Shown: positions 5,860-55,728 of the stretch, one piece after another
Layout: every line of letters starts with the position of its first letter
How positions within the stretch are numbered: the stretch's first letter is position 1
From: Terriglobus albidus
GTDB lineage: Bacteria > Acidobacteriota > Terriglobia > Terriglobales > Acidobacteriaceae
Direction: 5' to 3'
NCBI RefSeq assembly: GCF_025685425.1
Contig: NZ_JAGTAS010000058.1
Location: 1-64,000, forward strand
Length of the DNA stretch: 64,000 bases
Notes under the pieces: generated by a model
What the model was told of the DNA's origin: nothing
What the model saw: the letters and a program-made list of their open reading frames with translations, nothing else
Database searches by the model: none
Program-made: the position numbers and the translations under genes

Positions 5860-6085
5860 GTCATCCTGAACGAAGTGAAGGACCTGCTTTTCAACCCTTC
5901 GGAGGCAAAAGCTAAGGACCTGGGGACGTTGCCCCAGGTGATATAGAACGCGCCTTCAGCGCTTAGAGCCAGGGAACCTTTTGTTTCATTATTCTCATGT
6001 CTGCCGGGTGCCCACCCTTCGCGGTTCCCAACGAACTTGTTGTTGGAGTGAACGCTCGCAATGCTAGGGTGGGGTAGGGAATACC
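5860..6085. repeat. mixed palindromic intergenic repeat (type 3) between ccm operon and VOC gene
   Basis: The 402-base gap 5800-6201 contains no supportable gene. It holds a TGTCATCCTGAACGAAGTG block (from 5861), the palindrome CCTGGGGACGTTGCCCCAGG (5919-5938), then TATAGAACGCGCCTTCAGCG, and a GCAATGCTAGGGTGGGG block near 6058-6075. The middle unit recurs at 12727-12772 and the last at 9081-9108 (inverted) and 12790-12811. Short reading frames through it in any direction are repeat translations. Confidence 0.75.
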
Positions 6086-10479: not shown

Positions 10480-10504
10480 TAAGTGTTTGGCAGTTTTACC
10501 GCGA

Positions 10505-10660
10505 AGGGTGGGGCCCCGGCGAACTTGTTCGCCGGGGCTTAGCGTTGGGGCATCGCGCTTCGCGCGACCTTTTTTGTCATCCCGAAGGGATCCTTTTTCT
10601 CTTACCCTGGTAGGAAACCTCGGTAGAAAAGCAGATTTCTCCGCTAACGCTCCGAAATGA
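10505..10660. repeat. palindromic repeat region between convergent genes
   Basis: A 12-base stem GCCCCGGCGAAC / GTTCGCCGGGGC (10513-10538) with a 2-base loop is followed by CATCGCGCTTCGCGCG and by TGTCATCCCGAAGGGATCC. These blocks match the style of the type 3 repeats elsewhere in the window. No gene is supported here. The position between convergent genes suits bidirectional termination. Confidence 0.6.
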
Positions 10661-10686
10661 CAAATCAAAAGCGGGGACAATACGCC

Positions 10687-11706
10687 CTAGCTCAGAACCG
10701 TGAGCTTGCCTTCCGGCGTCTTCTCGATGGCGTGTAGCAAACGACCGTCTCCATCCAGATGCTGCAGCATCAGCTTCTTCGGTGTCACCGAGAGGTGACT
10801 GAAACCGTAGACCTTGTGTGCATACGGCCCGCGTACCGTGGGATCGACCTTGAGGTCATACAGGTCCGCACCGCCACCTCCTGACAGAAAGTAGGTCGTC
10901 GGATGCCCTTCGAACTCCAGATGCTGCAGATCGTGATCATGTCCCGCCAGATAGGCATGCACACCGTACTTGCGGAAGAGCGGGTCCCAGTCGCGGATCA
11001 GGATCTGATGGTCACCGTGCGGCCCGTCGGAGAAGACGGGATGGTGCGCGATCACGACCGTAAACGGAGTCTTGCGTGGCTTCTGGAGCTCAGCTTCAAG
11101 CCATGCGAGCTGTGCGACGCGCTCCTCTTCTGTCAGAGTGAAATCGATCGTCGGCTTGCCGTCCTTCCGCGGAGCGATCGGATGCGGCATGTTGCTGTCG
11201 AGCGCGATGAAGGTGATCAGCGGATTCTTCTTCGGGAACTCGAAGGTGTACCACTTCGCCGGCATGGTCCAGCGGCTGTGGCCGCGGCGAGCGTACTCCA
11301 GCTCTGCTTCGACCTTGCTCTTCGGAAAATACTGGTAGTCATGGTTGCCCAGCACAGCATATGCGGTGCAGTCGAAGACACTCTTCGGGTACATCTCTTC
11401 GAAACCGGTCTTCCAGCGCTCGGAGTCCACACCGCCCTCCAGTGCTTCGTACCAGTTATCACCCAGCATCAGCAGCGCCTGCGGTTTCAGTTTCTCGCGA
11501 AGCGTATAGTCGGCCATTCCTTTGGCGACAACCTGCTGTGCGGCGGGATTCAGATATCCCCAGTCACCCAGCATCAGCAACTCGGCTGCTGCCGGATCCT
11601 TCGGCATCACCTTGGCCAGGCCATGGCGCGAAGCCCACAGCGCCGTCGCGCTGAAAGCAAAACTCTGCCGCAGAAAGCGGCGACGATCGAGGTGGAGGTT
11701 TTCCAT
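10687..11706 (-). CDS. exported calcineurin-like metallophosphoesterase (tartrate-resistant acid phosphatase-like)
   Basis: A 339-residue protein with a twin-arginine-type leader (RRRFLRQSF, about residues 8-16, then a hydrophobic stretch to about 27). The five metallophosphoesterase blocks are all visible: LGDWGY, LGDNWY, LGNHDY, AHHPVFS and GHDHDLQH. The GDNWY and [11 protein letters not shown] forms match the purple/tartrate-resistant acid phosphatase subgroup, which uses a dinuclear metal centre. It probably releases phosphate in the periplasm. It is convergent with the 422-residue gene and divergent from htpX. Confidence 0.9.
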
Positions 11707-12689: not shown

Positions 12690-12815
12690 GGCCTTTCAGC
12701 CCTTTAACATCTTGTGGGCATCGAAACCTGGGGCGTTGCCCCAGGCTGGTATAGAGCGCGCCTTCAGCGCTTACCTACCCGGGTGCCCCACCCTCGCAAC
12801 GCTAGGGTGGGCTCG
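12690..12815. repeat. intergenic repeat type 3
   Basis: Contains the CCTGGGGCGTTGCCCCAGG palindrome with TATAGAGCGCGCCTTCAGCG (12727-12772), as at 5919-5965, followed by GGGTGCCCCACCCTCGCAAC with GCTAGGGTGGG (12781-12811). The 12658-12909 gap shows no other feature. Confidence 0.75.
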
Positions 12816-14277: not shown

Positions 14278-15054
14278 GTGTTTGTCCGTGTCCTAAGTCT
14301 CTGTCTGCTCAGCGCTACCGCCTTCGCTGCCGAGCACATCACACTGCGTACAGGCTTTACGCTGGACTGTGTCCGCCGTGAAGCAGCGGCTGAGCCTGGC
14401 CGGGTCCGGCTTTACACCAGCGAGCAGAGCTATCTGGAGGTTCCACAGGAAGCCATCGCTCAGGCTGAGTTCTTCGAGCTCCCGTCGCCGTCTATTCGAA
14501 CGGAGCTGAAAGAGACGGTGACGAAAGACGAGACATCTTTAGAGCGTGCAGCGGCGTTTTCATTGCGGAAAACGCCCATAGATGCGGAAGCCCTACACGA
14601 CACCCGCAGGGAAAATGCTCTAACCGCCTCTGAGCTGCACCAGTTGCTTGCCTCGGCTGGGGCAGCACATCGCGTTGACGCTGACCTTCTGGCCGCGGTA
14701 GTTCGTGCCGAAAGCAACAACCAGCCCGCTGCCGTATCCCGCGCTGGAGCGCAGGGACTGATGCAGCTTATGCCCGGTACAGCCCGCGAGCTCGGCGTAC
14801 ACAACAGCTTCCATCCCGGGGAAAACGTCAATGGCGGCTCAGCCTACCTGGACGCGCTGCTGACCCGTTATCACGACAATATGGCCATGGCGCTGGCGGC
14901 CTACAACGCCGGACCTGGAGCGGTGGATCGCTATCATGGCATTCCTCCCTATCGGGAGACCCGTGCCTACGTAGCCCGCGTCATCCGCGAATTCAACCGG
15001 CGTAAACTCGAGGCGGAGACCCGCAACGCAACGGCACAGGCCCAAGCTCAATGA
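14278..15054 (+). CDS. secreted lytic transglycosylase (SLT domain) with a repeat-derived insertion
   Basis: A 258-residue protein: signal peptide (about 1-17), a short N-terminal domain (19-80), a linker, and a C-terminal SLT domain (about 118-240) with the catalytic Glu145 in VVRAESN, then GAQGLMQLMPGTA and ALAAYNAGPGAV. It should cleave peptidoglycan to anhydromuropeptides. Residues about 88-116 (including FSLRKTPIDA) are encoded by a copy of the dispersed cloverleaf repeat at 14539-14623, inserted in frame between the two domains. The GTG start has TAGGCT 7 bases upstream and no Shine-Dalgarno sequence. The stop overlaps the next ATG (ATGA). Confidence 0.88.
   Translation: MFVRVLSLCLLSATAFAAEHITLRTGFTLDCVRREAAAEPGRVRLYTSEQSYLEVPQEAIAQAEFFELPSPSIRTELKETVTKDETSLERAAAFSLRKTPIDAEALHDTRRENALTASELHQLLASAGAAHRVDADLLAAVVRAESNNQPAAVSRAGAQGLMQLMPGTARELGVHNSFHPGENVNGGSAYLDALLTRYHDNMAMALAAYNAGPGAVDRYHGIPPYRETRAYVARVIREFNRRKLEAETRNATAQAQAQ
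14539..14623 (+). repeat. cloverleaf repeat copy A (shortened, inside a coding region)
   Basis: 85 bases bounded by TTAGAGC and GCTCTAA. It keeps the core hairpin GGCGTTTTC-ATTGC-GGAAAACGCC (14553-14576) and the right arm CCCGCAGGGAAAATGCTCTA, but lacks about 35 bases of the left arm and first hairpin seen in copies B-E. It lies entirely within the lytic transglycosylase gene and is read through in frame. Confidence 0.85.
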
Positions 15055-19803: not shown

Positions 19804-19805
19804 TG

Positions 19806-19917
19806 GAGCACTTCTCCTAATACTGTAACTTTGGATAAACCTGCGAATGCCGTTTTCTTCGCGGGAAAACGGCGCAGACAGTCATGCCTCCGTTCTGCAT
19901 CTTTAGGAGAAATGCTC
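19806..19917. repeat. cloverleaf repeat copy F (between pstB and phoU)
   Basis: 112 bases bounded by GAGCACTTCTCCTAA and TTAGGAGAAATGCTC (one mismatch). The core hairpin is GCCGTTTTC-TTCGC-GGGAAAACGGC, in which both arms differ from other copies by matching changes. The first hairpin seen in copies B-E is not recognisable. The right end contains the first base of the pstB stop codon (CTA at 19917-19919 on the plus strand). Confidence 0.75.
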
Positions 19918-20675
19918 TAGCCGAACCTGCCCGTGATGTAATCTTCGGTCCGTTTGTCGCTCGGGTTTGTGAAGATTTTGTGAGTCGAATCGAACTCGAC
20001 AAGATGTCCGCTTAAGAAGAACCCTGTTTTCTCTGCCACACGCGCCGCCTGTTGCATATTGTGGGTCACGATGACGATGGTGTACTCGTCTTTCAGTTGA
20101 AAGATCAAGTCCTCAATCTTCGCGGTCGAGACCGGATCAAGCGCAGACGCGGGTTCATCCATCAGCAACACTTCAGGATCAACGGCAATCGCCCGAGCAA
20201 TACAGAGACGCTGCTGCTGACCGCCGGAGAGCGAGGCTCCGCTTTTGGACTTCAGATGATCCTTCACTTCGTCCCACAGCGCCGCCTGTCGCAGCGAACG
20301 CTCCACGACCTCATCAAGCACGCGTTTATTGCGGAAGCCATTCAGTTTCAGACCGCTGGCAACGTTGTCGTAAATTGACATCGTCGGGAAAGGATTCGGC
20401 CGCTGGAACACCATGCCAATGCGGCGGCGAATCTCAACCGGAGAAGCATCCTTGTAGACATCAACATCGCCGACGCGAACAGTACCTTCTGCTCGAGCGA
20501 CAGGATTGGTCTCATGCATGCGATTCAGGCAGCGCACAAAGGTGGACTTACCGCAGCCGGACGGCCCGATGAGCGCCGTCGCCGAGTTGGCGGGAATCTT
20601 CAGATTGATGCCCTTCAGCGTGTGCGTCTGGCCGTACCACGCATTCAGGTCTTCGACTTCAATACCGACGCCCAC
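19917..20675 (-). CDS. pstB: phosphate ABC transporter ATP-binding protein PstB
   Basis: A 252-residue ATPase of standard length: Walker [10 protein letters not shown] (37-45), signature [14 protein letters not shown], Walker [14 protein letters not shown], and the PstB-type end [14 protein letters not shown]. It powers high-affinity phosphate import through PstC/PstA. A GTG start follows directly after the pstA stop codon. Its TAG stop lies at the edge of cloverleaf repeat F. Confidence 0.97.
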
Positions 20676-28052: not shown

Positions 28053-28081
28053 GCAACGTGGCCTTTATTCTGATTCGAAAG

Positions 28082-28276
28082 AAAGGCCCAGGGCCAGCGG
28101 GCTGAAGCCTGCTGCTCCCACCCAGAAAACAATTCGCGCGCTGCGCGAATCTCCCACTCATCGCGTTGCGATGAATGGGGTGCCCAGTGCAGCAAAGCTC
28201 GAATTAGTGGGAGACGTGGGTTTCAGCCCACCGTTATTCGCTCTAGAAGAAATGGGCTTTTAGCCCTGGGTTTTCT
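28082..28276. repeat. intergenic repeat type 2 (rearranged copy) between convergent genes
   Basis: Contains AGCGGGCTGAAGCCTGCTG with CTCCCACCC, AATTCGCGCGCTGCGCGAAT (a perfect palindrome), GTGGGAGACGTGGGTTTCAGCCCACC and ATGGGCTTTTAGCCC. The blocks match those in the copies at 48212-48364 and 53603-53756 but in a different arrangement. No gene is visible in this gap. Confidence 0.75.
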
Positions 28277-28280
28277 AATT

Positions 28281-29318
28281 TCAAAGCTCTTCCACAATCA
28301 ACCTTGCCGCAGTCTCACACTGCGCGTGCGAGACATCGTTATGCGTGACCAGCCGCAATGCGTGTGGACCGATGGCGCTGCAACGAACACCCTTCGCTTC
28401 CAGGCGGCGAACAAGGGCTGCGGCGTCCCCGTTGCCGGCCAAACGGAAGATCACAATATTGGTCTGCACGCCTGAAAGATCCATCTCCGCGGCTGGAGAG
28501 GTTGCAATCGCCTCCGCCAGCAGACGAGCGTTCGCGTGGTCTTCCGCGAGCCGTTTGGACATCTCCTCCAGGGCAATCAAGCCCGCAGCGGCGAGCACGC
28601 CGGCCTGACGCATGCCACCACCCAGCATCTTACGGATAACGCGTGCACGGTCGATGGAGGCGCGGCTGCCGACGATCATCGATCCGACAGGCGCACCCAG
28701 GCCTTTGGAGAGGCAGAACATGACGGTATCAAAGCCACTGGTCAACCGTGAGACGGAAACGCCAAGCGCGGTAGCAGCATTGAAAACACGGGCTCCATCC
28801 AGATGCGTCGGAATGCCGCACTCCTTGGCGCCGGCCCAGATCTCCTCAAAAACATCGAGCGGCGTGACTGTTCCCCCTGCCATGTTATGCGAGTTTTCCA
28901 GCTCGATCAGCCCAGTGCGCGCGCGATAGTATGCCGCCGTGTTGAGAACGATCTTCTCGCGGATCTGAGACCAGGTCAGTACGCCGCGGTCTCCAAAGAT
29001 AGTGCGCGGCACAGTTCCGGCAACGGAAGCCATCGATCCCATCTCCCAGTCGAGAATATGGGCGCGCGATTCGCAGATAACCTCCTGCCCCGGCCGTGTG
29101 TGGACCATGATGGAGGTGAGATTGCCCATCGAGCCGGTGGGAACAAAGATGGCAGCTTCTTTACCGAAGACCTGTGCGGCTCGAGCTTCCAGCCGGTTGA
29201 CCGTTGGGTCTTCCCCATAGACATCGTCGCCGACCTCGGCGGTAGCCATAGCATGGCGCATAGCGGCGGTGGGTTTGGTGAACGTGTCGCTGCGAAGCTC
29301 GATCATCTCCATGCCCAT
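28281..29318 (-). CDS. low-specificity L-threonine aldolase
   Basis: A 345-residue fold-type I PLP enzyme. The start IELRSDTFTKPT and the PLP lysine K205 in FCLSKGLGAPVGS match the beta-eliminating lyase/threonine aldolase family. It should cleave threonine or allo-threonine to glycine and acetaldehyde. It follows the hemW-like gene by 6 bases on the same strand and probably shares its mRNA. Confidence 0.92.
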   Translation of the reverse strand: MGMEMIELRSDTFTKPTAAMRHAMATAEVGDDVYGEDPTVNRLEARAAQVFGKEAAIFVPTGSMGNLTSIMVHTRPGQEVICESRAHILDWEMGSMASVAGTVPRTIFGDRGVLTWSQIREKIVLNTAAYYRARTGLIELENSHNMAGGTVTPLDVFEEIWAGAKECGIPTHLDGARVFNAATALGVSVSRLTSGFDTVMFCLSKGLGAPVGSMIVGSRASIDRARVIRKMLGGGMRQAGVLAAAGLIALEEMSKRLAEDHANARLLAEAIATSPAAEMDLSGVQTNIVIFRLAGNGDAAALVRRLEAKGVRCSAIGPHALRLVTHNDVSHAQCETAARLIVEEL

Positions 29319-43699: not shown

Positions 43700-43738
43700 A
43701 GAATGTACGTACGTCAGCCGGGAAGGTGAGCAACTTTT

Positions 43739-43850
43739 AAAGCATTTCCCTGTTGCTGGGTTTCCCGGAAGAGGAGTGCAGCGGCGTTTTCGTTGCGGAA
43801 AACGCCCATAGATGCTCCAGCCCTACTCTACACCCACAGGGAAATGCTTT
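43739..43850 (+). repeat. cloverleaf repeat copy B
   Basis: 112 bases bounded by a perfect 15-base inverted repeat AAAGCATTTCCCTGT / ACAGGGAAATGCTTT. Inside are CTGGGTTTCCCGG and the core hairpin GGCGTTTTC-GTTGC-GGAAAACGCC. It lies between the divergent small secreted protein and POTRA genes. Confidence 0.9.
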
Positions 43851-51991: not shown

Positions 51992-52105
51992 TAGAGCATT
52001 TTCACTGCAGGTGTACCCAGAGGATCAGCATCTATGGGCGTTTTCCGCAATGAAAACGCGCTGCACGCCTTTTCCGGGATACCCAGCAACAGTGAAAATG
52101 CTCTA
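51992..52105 (-). repeat. cloverleaf repeat copy C (inverted)
   Basis: 114 bases bounded by a perfect 16-base inverted repeat TAGAGCATTTTCACTG / CAGTGAAAATGCTCTA. Read on the minus strand it has the usual order: CTGGGTATCCCGG, then GCGTTTTC-ATTGC-GGAAAACGCC, then CATAGATGC. Its right end supplies the TAG stop codon (52103-52105) of the endonuclease IV gene. Confidence 0.9.
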
Positions 52106-53533: not shown

Positions 53534-53602
53534 CGATTAGGACAACTCTAAGCTTATCGGCAAGTTCGAATGATCTGAGACGGTCAGAGTGTGTCTGAAA
53601 CT

Positions 53603-53756
53603 GGTGGGAGCAGCGGGCTTCAGCCCGCTGATAAAGGCGTAAGTGAATGGGCTTTAGCCTTGGGCTTTCTCTTTGCATCACGAAAAGGCCCAGAGCTAAA
53701 AGCCCATTTCTATATTGACCAATAGAGCGTGGGCTTAAAAGCCCACGGCTCCCACC
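53603..53756. repeat. intergenic repeat type 2
   Basis: 154 bases bounded by GGTGGGAGC / GCTCCCACC. Inside are AGCGGGCTTCAGCCCGCTG, ATGGGCTTTAGCCTTGGGC, GGCCCAGAGCTAAAAGCCCA and GTGGGCTTAAAAGCCCAC. The 318-base gap 53479-53796 between convergent genes holds only this and the terminator; GGTTCGAGCTTCGCTCGAA near 53757-53775 is a further small hairpin. Confidence 0.85.
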
Positions 53757-53796
53757 GGTTCGAGCTTCGCTCGAATAGTCACCCCAGCGCAGCGTC

Positions 53797-54945
53797 TTAG
53801 TAGACGTCGCGCTGATAGCGCTTCTGCTTCTTCATCTCTGCCAGATAGGCATTGGCATCATCGAGGGTGCCGTGCTTGCCCAGGGCGATAGCATCCAGCA
53901 AGGCATTCTCGACATCCTTGGCCATACGACTGGCATCGCCGCAGACGTAGAAGTACGCGCCTTCTTCCAGCCACTTGTACAGCTCGGCGGCATGCTCCCT
54001 CATGCGGTCCTGCACGTAGACCTTCTGCTTCTGATCGCGGGAGAAGGCCGTGTGGAAGTTATTCAGCAGGCCGTCCTTGTGCCATGCTTCCAGCTCGCTC
54101 CGGTACAGGAAGTCCGAAGACTGACGTTGCTCGCCGAAGAAGAGCCAGTTCTTGCCCTTTTGGCCCAGCGCCTGGCGGTGCTGCAGGAAGGCGCGGAAGG
54201 GCGCGATTCCGGTGCCGGGGCCGATCATGATGACCGGGGCATTGGAGTCTTCGGGAAGGCGGAAGTTCTTATTCTCGTGCAGAAAGACCGGCATCTTGTG
54301 CCCCTCAGGAGCACGCTCGGCAAGGTGTCCACTGCAGAGTCCCTGGCGCTCGCGGCCATGAGTGTCATAGCGAATGACGCGAACGATGGTGTGTACTGCG
54401 TTCGGATTCATCTCCTGGCTGGAGGCGATGGAGTACATGCGCGGCGTCAGGCGCTGCAGTACGGTAAAGAGATCCTGCGGATTCTTGATGATGCCGGGAA
54501 ATTCGGTAATCAGGTCGATAAACTCGCGGCCCCAGACATACTCTTCGGCGAGGGAACGGTTCTCGGGAAGGGTGTACTTGCGGAGCTCGTCCGCCTTGGG
54601 ATGGCCGTCAGCCATCTTGGCCAGAGCGGTTACACTGCCGCGGGACAGCTTGCCGATGCCGAGGCGGGTGCGTATGGCCTCGTGCAGGGAGATCTCAACC
54701 TTGTAGTGGTCCAGAACGCGCTCTTCGCCGGTAAATCCAAGGGCTTCCAGCACGTGGTGCACGGCTTGGGGACGGTTCTCAGGAAGAATGCCGATGGCAT
54801 CGCCGGGGGTGTAGTGCATGCCGGGCTCAAGCTCCAGCTCGTAGTGCCGTGTCTCCTTCTCGGAGTCGGCAAGCGTCATGCGCTGATTGACGAGGACGCG
54901 CGAATGGTAAGGATTATTGCGGGTGTATTTACTGTCTGTGCTCAT
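53797..54945 (-). CDS. FAD/NADPH oxidoreductase of the CysJ type, without flavodoxin domain
   Basis: A 382-residue flavoprotein. It has the FAD-binding and connecting region (about 15-170), RMYSIASS for the FAD ring/phosphate, GPGTGIAPFR for NADPH binding, the CGD element, and the C-terminal YQRDVY typical of sulfite reductase alpha and cytochrome P450 reductases. The N-terminal FMN (flavodoxin) domain of CysJ is missing. No sulfite reductase beta subunit lies in this window. Two tandem cloverleaf repeats occupy its upstream region. It probably passes electrons from NADPH to an unknown partner. Confidence 0.88.
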   Translation of the reverse strand: MSTDSKYTRNNPYHSRVLVNQRMTLADSEKETRHYELELEPGMHYTPGDAIGILPENRPQAVHHVLEALGFTGEERVLDHYKVEISLHEAIRTRLGIGKLSRGSVTALAKMADGHPKADELRKYTLPENRSLAEEYVWGREFIDLITEFPGIIKNPQDLFTVLQRLTPRMYSIASSQEMNPNAVHTIVRVIRYDTHGRERQGLCSGHLAERAPEGHKMPVFLHENKNFRLPEDSNAPVIMIGPGTGIAPFRAFLQHRQALGQKGKNWLFFGEQRQSSDFLYRSELEAWHKDGLLNNFHTAFSRDQKQKVYVQDRMREHAAELYKWLEEGAYFYVCGDASRMAKDVENALLDAIALGKHGTLDDANAYLAEMKKQKRYQRDVY

Positions 54946-54962
54946 GGGTCCGTCTTCTATTT

Positions 54963-55078
54963 TAGAGCGTTCCCCTGTCGCTGGGTATCCCGGAAGGGAC
55001 CTGCAGCGGCGTTTTCATTACGGAAAACGCCCATAGAATGGGGACGCCCCCACGGCACCCGCAGGGGAAAACACCCTA
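54963..55078 (+). repeat. cloverleaf repeat copy D
   Basis: 116 bases starting TAGAGCGTTCCCCTGTCGC and ending GCAGGGGAAAACACCCTA. The outer stem is imperfect (TTCCCCTG / CAGGGGAA paired). CTGGGTATCCCGG and GGCGTTTTC-ATTAC-GGAAAACGCC are present. It lies 18 bases upstream of the flavoprotein start codon and 18 bases from copy E. Confidence 0.8.
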
Positions 55079-55096
55079 CCGGAGACGGACCCGATG

Positions 55097-55204
55097 GAGC
55101 ATTTTCCCGGTTACCGGGTATCCCGGAAAGGGCCTGCAGCGGCGTTTCATCGCGGAAAACCCCATCGATGCGGGAGCCTACATTAGACCTACGGGAAAAT
55201 GCTC
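55097..55204 (+). repeat. cloverleaf repeat copy E
   Basis: 108 bases bounded by a perfect 13-base inverted repeat GAGCATTTTCCCG / CGGGAAAATGCTC. It has a perfect first hairpin CCGGGTATCCCGG and a degenerate core hairpin (GGCGTTTCATCGCGGAAAAC). It ends 5 bases before the stop codon of the outer-membrane protein gene. Confidence 0.85.
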
Positions 55205-55209
55205 TCGCC

Positions 55210-55728
55210 CTAAAAACGCAGCGCCAGGCCTGTGCTGAGGTTGACCGGATGGTAGGTGGTCGAACCGGTGGAAAGGTTCTGATACCCGAACTCGATGACG
55301 CGCCAGTCGATGTGCGGCAGCAATGTCGTTTCCAGACCGGCGTCGAGCTGGTAGCCAAAGTCGGTGTGATCAACATGGGTGGAAGAGCTGACCGAATAGT
55401 TAGTAAACCCAATTTCAGCCTGGCCGTAGATCTTGAACGGAACCACATGCGGAACGAACGAGAGACGTGGACCGATCATGAAGTTCTTGACGCTGGTCGA
55501 ACCTTTGGAAAGGAACTGACCGCGCGCATCCAGACCGATGTGGGCCGGTAATACGCCACCATGATCGAAGTAGACGCCAACTGTCGGGCCAAAGACCCAG
55601 TTGTCACTCGCAGAGTTGCTGATGCGGGATGCTGTTCCTTCGACGTACACCGCCTGCGCGTGCGATGACCTTCCAGAAACGGAAAAAGTTAAAAAAAGAG
55701 CTGCAAAAACAAGCAGACGGGGCTTCAT
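55210..55728 (-). CDS. outer-membrane beta-barrel protein
   Basis: A 172-residue protein with a signal peptide (about 1-24, ending SHAQ), alternating amphipathic strands (for example PFKIYGQAEIGFTNYSV and GYQLDAGLETTLLPHIDW), and a C-terminal Phe (STGLALRF), the typical barrel-assembly signal. It resembles small OmpA/OmpW-like eight-stranded barrels. The ATG at 55728 starts the leader; the ATG at 55740 directly abuts GGAGG and is less likely. Function unknown. Confidence 0.85.
   Translation of the reverse strand: MKPRLLVFAALFLTFSVSGRSSHAQAVYVEGTASRISNSASDNWVFGPTVGVYFDHGGVLPAHIGLDARGQFLSKGSTSVKNFMIGPRLSFVPHVVPFKIYGQAEIGFTNYSVSSSTHVDHTDFGYQLDAGLETTLLPHIDWRVIEFGYQNLSTGSTTYHPVNLSTGLALRF

Follow-up and report, generated by a model that had tools for sequence, protein, structure and literature searches.

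A MITE copy read in frame within a predicted lytic transglycosylase gene of Terriglobus albidus

In Terriglobus albidus, a lytic transglycosylase gene carries a copy of a mobile repeat which, as the sequence supports, is now part of the open reading frame (ORF) between the N-terminal and SLT domains and is predicted to add a peptide to the protein. Taking together all the steps laid out below, we consider it very probable that the insert is a copy of a MITE that entered the linker of this gene after the species had split from its sisters. The window referred to throughout is the whole stretch of T. albidus DNA that was analyzed, 64,000 nucleotides in length, and its features are collected in Table 1. 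The T. albidus genome (G000) was compared with the genomes of three sisters (G002, G015, and G012) and with a more distant one (G017).

The lytic transglycosylase gene and its insert

The predicted protein starts with a hydrophobic, signal-like N-terminus (judged by eye), followed by a beta N-domain, a linker, and the SLT domain. Its assignment to the SLT family is based on the match to PF01464, which scores well above the cut-off (E 1.4e-26, 92.8 bits vs. 21.3), and on the presence of the conserved Glu; the solved structural relatives of this domain include Slt70, MltF, and MltC. In an alignment of 23 sequences, E145 is present in every one, and the catalytic residue is intact, as the original prediction had it; the insert was also confirmed to lie between the N-terminal and SLT (residues 125–225) domains. 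The presence of a repeat copy inside this ORF with the frame kept is borne out by the limits of the copy, its match to the repeat consensus, and the open ORF itself.

Other details had to be revised. When codon 1 is set at position 14278, the TTA codon at 14539–14541 encodes L88, and the inserted codons are E89–L115, i.e., 27 residues and 81 bp net instead of the approximately 28 residues from L88 to T116 proposed before. The copy is indeed shortened, by about 35 bases of the left arm in the original prediction and by a 33-bp internal gap in the comparison with the consensus. With this gap allowed, the copy differs from the 112-bp consensus at 3 of 79 positions, which suits a recent insertion. 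The same region has 53 further matches in the own genome at E <= 7.6e-9. One predicted tryptic peptide, TPIDAEALHDTR (residues 99–110), falls within the insert.

Table 1. Features of the transglycosylase gene, its insert, and other copies of the element in the 64,000-nucleotide window.
Feature	Position	Strand	Evidence
Lytic transglycosylase gene, 258 aa, GTG start	14278..15054	+	ORF; PF01464; AF2 model
Left TA of presumed 2-bp target duplication	14540..14541	.	Sequence; the empty site is TG in the sisters
MITE copy shortened to 79 of 112 bp; codes for E89–L115 together with the right TA	14542..14620	+	Sequence, consensus and sister comparison
Junction of the 33-bp internal deletion, right after GAGC	14545..14546	.	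Comparison with consensus
Conserved internal hairpin core of the element	14554..14575	+	Genome matches; fold
Right TA of presumed 2-bp target duplication	14621..14622	.	Sequence
SLT catalytic domain, residues 125–225	14650..14952	+	Pfam PF01464
Glu145 codon	14710–14712	+	Within SLT domain
Subfamily copy, same ends, different interior; empty site in G002 is TA	19804..19919	+	Filled/empty pair
Full copy of the element	43738..43850	+	nhmmer
Full copy at a TA target; G002 lacks it there	51992..52105	-	nhmmer; filled/empty pair
Diverged copy of the element	54962..55070	+	Profile/consensus comparison
Second diverged copy, beside the 54962..55070 copy	55096..55205	+	Profile/consensus comparison

The ORF runs through all 258 codons without a stop or frameshift, and over the 231 codons outside the insert the dN/dS ratio is 0.086 against G002 and 0.057 against G015; judged from these substitution rates, the gene outside the insert is shown to be under purifying selection. 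Outside the insert, the T. albidus gene has accumulated nine private amino-acid changes, the highest number among the three genes compared (five in G002 and three in G015), and thus some relaxation of constraint is possible. These changes also speak for an alternative in which the gene is a decaying pseudogene whose frame is open by luck; however, given the intact 258-codon frame, the low dN/dS (0.06–0.09), and the intact Glu145, we regard such decay as very improbable.

In the AF2 model, pLDDT is mostly high over both the N-terminal beta domain and the SLT domain, residues 72–84 are below 50, and the ten-residue blocks across 81–110 are at 48, 54, and 62, with a low-confidence helix drawn at 103–111 in the insert. 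As no aligned relative carries the segment, its low pLDDT points only weakly to disorder.

Comparison with related genomes

The corresponding genes of G002, G015, G012, and G017, whose proteins are 94, 94, 89, and 81% identical to the T. albidus transglycosylase, respectively, lack the insert, leaving a gap of 81 bp or 27 residues. The insert segment was found in none of the 50 homologous loci compared, which are best matches and not proven orthologues. This set combines 29 loci from a search with matches in 59 of 61 genomes and 21 used of 80 from a second search; since loci L012/L119 and L035/L132 are apparently the same contigs from two collections, it corresponds to approximately 48 genomes. 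The alignment check that came with the original prediction thus gave the expected answer, absence of the segment, and conservation of the segment in distant orthologues lacking the repeat, named there as the contrary observation, was not seen among these loci. The reverse scenario, with the segment ancestral to the protein and the gene as the source of the dispersed repeats, found no support and appears extremely improbable, since the segment is missing from 50 out of 50 homologous loci and the gene copy is truncated, whereas 162 of 192 distinct repeat copies are full length.

The stretch F66–R132 that surrounds the insert has 67 residues in T. albidus and 30–63 residues in the 50 homologous loci, so that the insert landed in a linker already variable in length. 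The empty site in the sister genes reads CTGAC and not CTAAC, hence the TA target at the transglycosylase site is an assumption.

As for the role of the added residues, we weighed the possibility that the insert was recruited, with 27 residues that alter the enzyme's spacing, its regulation, or its binding of partners and are kept by selection. The frame was kept despite the 33-bp loss and the rest of the gene is constrained, as recruitment would have it. Against this, there is a single carrier genome, so that conservation of the segment is not measurable, and the linker differs in length from relative to relative and is modelled at low confidence. We therefore hold recruitment to be unlikely, and a neutral peptide, rather than a new function, is the most likely outcome of the insertion.

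The repeat family and its mobility

According to a profile built from the copies, the repeat is 112 bp long, lies between TA dinucleotides, and has the inverted ends GAGCATTTTCCC...GGGAAAATGCTC. The consensus folds as RNA into a single long hairpin of -54.8 kcal/mol (z-score of -5.8 relative to shuffled sequences), in which the ends, together with the TA, pair over 17 positions and constitute terminal inverted repeats. A search with the 22-bp core allowing up to three mismatches returned 359 matches in the 6.1-Mb genome, and the reversed-pattern control returned none. Matches to the repeat occur in 5 of 61 genomes including the own one, namely G000, G002, G012, G015, and G010, the last with two weak partial matches only; within the genus, the repeat is matched in the same 5 of 19 genomes. 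First-look repeat candidates, of which only about 40 per genome were scored, numbered 434 in G000, 335 in G002, 279 in G012, and 310 in G015, as compared with 1–12 in other members of the genus. After removal of duplicates and of copies near locus ends, 192 distinct copies were kept of 218, among which 162 are full length; they were drawn by similarity and pattern, and 143 of the 192 come from G000. The repeat is short and dispersed, has no internal transposase gene, and combines inverted ends with a target duplication, and is thus a MITE.

No match to the consensus was found in a plasmid collection, and Rfam searched over the window at the gathering threshold gave no match to the repeat. Among the papers found on repeats or MITEs in Acidobacteria, PMC3733652 included, none appears by title or opening of the abstract to describe this repeat.

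We also observed tandem arrays of the element in the T. albidus genome, at C55 219910–220284, C42 15897–16202, C39 265295–265722, and C38 5308–5623, with a start-to-start spacing of 111–126 bp (114 bp in C55). The only Rfam match in the window is the Acido-Lenti-1 RNA (RF01687) at 12727–12771, above the gathering score, in a block that is absent from G002 at that place; a repeat similar to it lies at 5918–5965. Intergenic blocks of approximately 200–250 bp with other palindromes, at 10488–10688, 28056–28285, and 53544–53798, are missing from G002 at the corresponding place as well. It is likely that the window contains further small repeats beyond the MITE.

Alignment of 184 kb of the T. albidus genome to 180 kb of G002, which are syntenic and approximately 85–91% identical, provided sites filled in one genome and empty in the other. 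Eight filled/empty pairs were read by eye; in five of them, an identical dinucleotide flanks the copy on either side and also makes up the empty site (TA in four, CA in one), two of these five having a few extra bases beside the copy. The remaining three comprise the transglycosylase site, with TA on both sides vs. TG in the sisters, and two pairs with differing sides. Left out were junctions, messy or internally deleted, that touch the copies at G000:C28 55092, 57483, and 113817, as well as gaps of more than 420 bases, including the copy at 43738. For a copy of the second subfamily, which has the same ends but a different interior (Table 1), at approximately G000:C28 73306–73416, the two flanks and the empty site all read CA. 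Among the 162 full copies, TA stands on the left of 144, on the right of 112, and on both sides of 103, and the left TA is preceded by a pyrimidine in 86%. The repeat spreads by transposon-like insertion with a 2-bp, mostly TA, duplication.

The search for a mobilizing transposase covered the families PF13358, PF13340, and PF01609 and yielded none bearing the ends of the element. In G000 and G002, the ends of the IS630-type (PF13358) elements begin with TTATTGATTCCTG, unlike those of the MITE, and a RUP-like derivation from these elements was rejected on this ground. When five PF13358 loci were scanned for the MITE ends, the element of G015 being scanned for the MITE end only, no matching pair was found around the transposase. 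PF01609 and PF13340 (IS5-like) transposases had no match in G000 or G015; at 7 of 20 PF13340/PF01609 loci, ends near the transposase were ordinary MITE copies or isolated, and no matching pair was detected.

The open frame and the 33-bp loss

A full 112-bp element with its 2-bp duplication amounts to 114 bp, or 38 codons, and the consensus is open in the frame used by the transglycosylase; a full-length insertion would thus also be read through. The original prediction had offered the shortening as a possible cause of the kept frame, which we reject, since the full element keeps the frame and the missing 33 bp are 11 codons. Element plus duplication measures 114 bp in 85 of the 162 full copies and is a multiple of three in 92. 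Three of the six frames of the consensus are open, a number equalled or exceeded by 153 of 5000 shuffles.

The exact junction of the 33-bp deletion occurs once in four genomes. A second GAGC directly before GTGCAGCGG is present in 10 of 107 copies with the motif, the insert copy uncounted. Because the pattern used to collect nine of these ten loci favours such copies, the true share is lower; full copies of this kind are possible donors for the slip proposed here.

We propose that a non-autonomous 112-bp MITE would have inserted at a TA-like site in the transglycosylase linker in the lineage of this species, in a phase that would read LEHF...ENAL without a stop and add 38 codons. Slippage from one GAGC repeat to another, either earlier or later than this insertion, would have removed 33 bp (11 codons) and left 27 extra residues, which the enzyme may tolerate because the linker is loose.

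Location of the copies relative to genes

Copies within other genes were sought with a codon model, in which the correct frame ranked top in 97.6% of 501 windows taken from its own training genes. Enough flank (240 bases on both sides) was available for 188 of the 192 copies, and the transglycosylase copy alone lies in an unbroken ORF of at least 40 codons on each side with both flanks coding-like. Its flanks score 9.0 and 13.0, and those of the next case 0.1 and 16.3. As this copy was known beforehand, the fair count is none of the 187 others: ORFs cross many of these copies, and none has two coding-like flanks. A 559-codon ORF at window positions 53872–55551 runs open through the copies at 54962–55205. 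It was rejected as a fusion, being antisense to another gene, presumably a flavoprotein reductase by its appearance, and neither copy has both flanks coding.

Copies also coincided unexpectedly with stop codons. For 37 of the 162 full copies, a coding-like ORF next to the element has a stop that starts exactly at the flanking TA, so that the element supplies the third stop base (TAG in 36, TAA in one), and other offsets occur at most four times each; examples are L102:5152–5266 and L110:8426–8540. Alignable counterparts were available for 6 of the 37, comprising four clean ones, one poor alignment, and one tandem copy; in all four clean counterparts, the stop of the relative is at the same place. 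The target of the element looks like Y-TA-G/A(-C), a pattern that a pyrimidine followed by a TAA or TAG stop would provide, and both inverted ends start with G beside the duplicated TA, whereby a TAG stop would be kept on either strand.

The observed share of 37 in 162 compares with 4.6% expected among noncoding TA sites, and weighting by the target context of the element gives 36 of 144 against 9.3% expected. A local control of stops vs. TA sites 3–60 bases downstream, without context weighting, shows a 3.2-fold excess (p 1.5e-5). Within YTAR sites only, the effect is smaller (21 of 76 against 17.3% expected, p 0.017), indicating that part of the excess is target context; the true excess is probably smaller still, as the gene model over-calls noncoding sequence, leaving too much of it (112 of 364 kb). 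The remaining excess may stem from a preference of the transposase or from selection against other sites, which are indistinguishable here. A tentative idea, which we put at well short of an even chance, is that landing on stop codons is what the element is made for, coding insertions like that in the transglycosylase being a rare miss. If true, the family would amount to a natural means of inserting DNA at gene ends while leaving the gene unbroken and of placing a strong hairpin directly after the stop.

Comparison with known elements

In-frame fusions of intragenic MITEs are described as not unusual, with the Rickettsia palindromic elements (RPE) as the extreme case (PMC10969869), and RPE, ERIC, and Correia repeats have all been reported in in-frame fusions to genes (PMC2229807). 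For a guanylate kinase containing an RPE, the one such product assayed, activity was kept and substrate affinity changed (PMC2229807). Enterobacterial repeats have TA ends and TA duplications, and in one ERIC-type fusion the normal stop was removed (PMC2759123). QMITE insertions supply stops or peptides (PMC5896051), and BOX repeats encode the stop in 36 of 58 overlapping CDSs (PMC3049150). As in-frame fusions and repeat-supplied stops are both in print, the transglycosylase insertion is a known kind of event.

RPE resembles the Acidobacterium MITE as a palindromic repeat (approximately 150 bp) that occurs in frame inside genes for known proteins (PMC10969869, PMC2229807). The two differ, by description, in that nearly half of RPE copies are in ORFs (PMC10969869), whereas this holds for 1 of the 188 sampled MITE copies, and we rejected the classification of the MITE as a frequent in-gene inserter of the RPE type. 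ERIC/RU and Correia (NEMIS) share with the MITE a small size, open frames, and fusion in frame (PMC2229807), and ERIC/RU additionally a stem-loop, TA ends, and TA target duplication (PMC2759123); they belong, however, to other phyla, and the likeness is one of description. The pneumococcal RUP is also similar in its length of 107 bp, many intergenic copies, and TA targets (PMC2229807). Its ends resemble those of a resident IS630-type element (PMC2229807), whereas the MITE ends differ from the IS630-type ones in G000 and G002; moreover, RUP has stops in all six frames (PMC2229807), whereas three of six are open in the MITE consensus. In BOX of pneumococcus (PMC3049150) and QMITE1 of Coxiella (ubiB, CBU_2020; PMC5896051), the repeat supplies the stop of a neighbouring gene, as the MITE does, but in the MITE this stop consists of the flanking TA and the first base of the element and is available from either strand. 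The REP/BIME class was rejected, its palindromes measuring 20–40 bp vs. the 112-bp MITE unit with a 2-bp duplication.

Thus, the finding comprises a MITE family for which no description was found, together with one well-bracketed in-frame case, and the event itself is not unprecedented. In this case, three sister empty sites bracket the passage of a transposon fragment into coding sequence in an Acidobacterium. Such an insertion is survivable because the element and its duplication together often come to a whole number of codons, because several frames are open, and because the linker it enters varies in length. More broadly, the MITE family suggests how a high-copy element can live in a gene-dense genome: its copies seldom lie within genes and frequently coincide with a stop codon, which the element restores.
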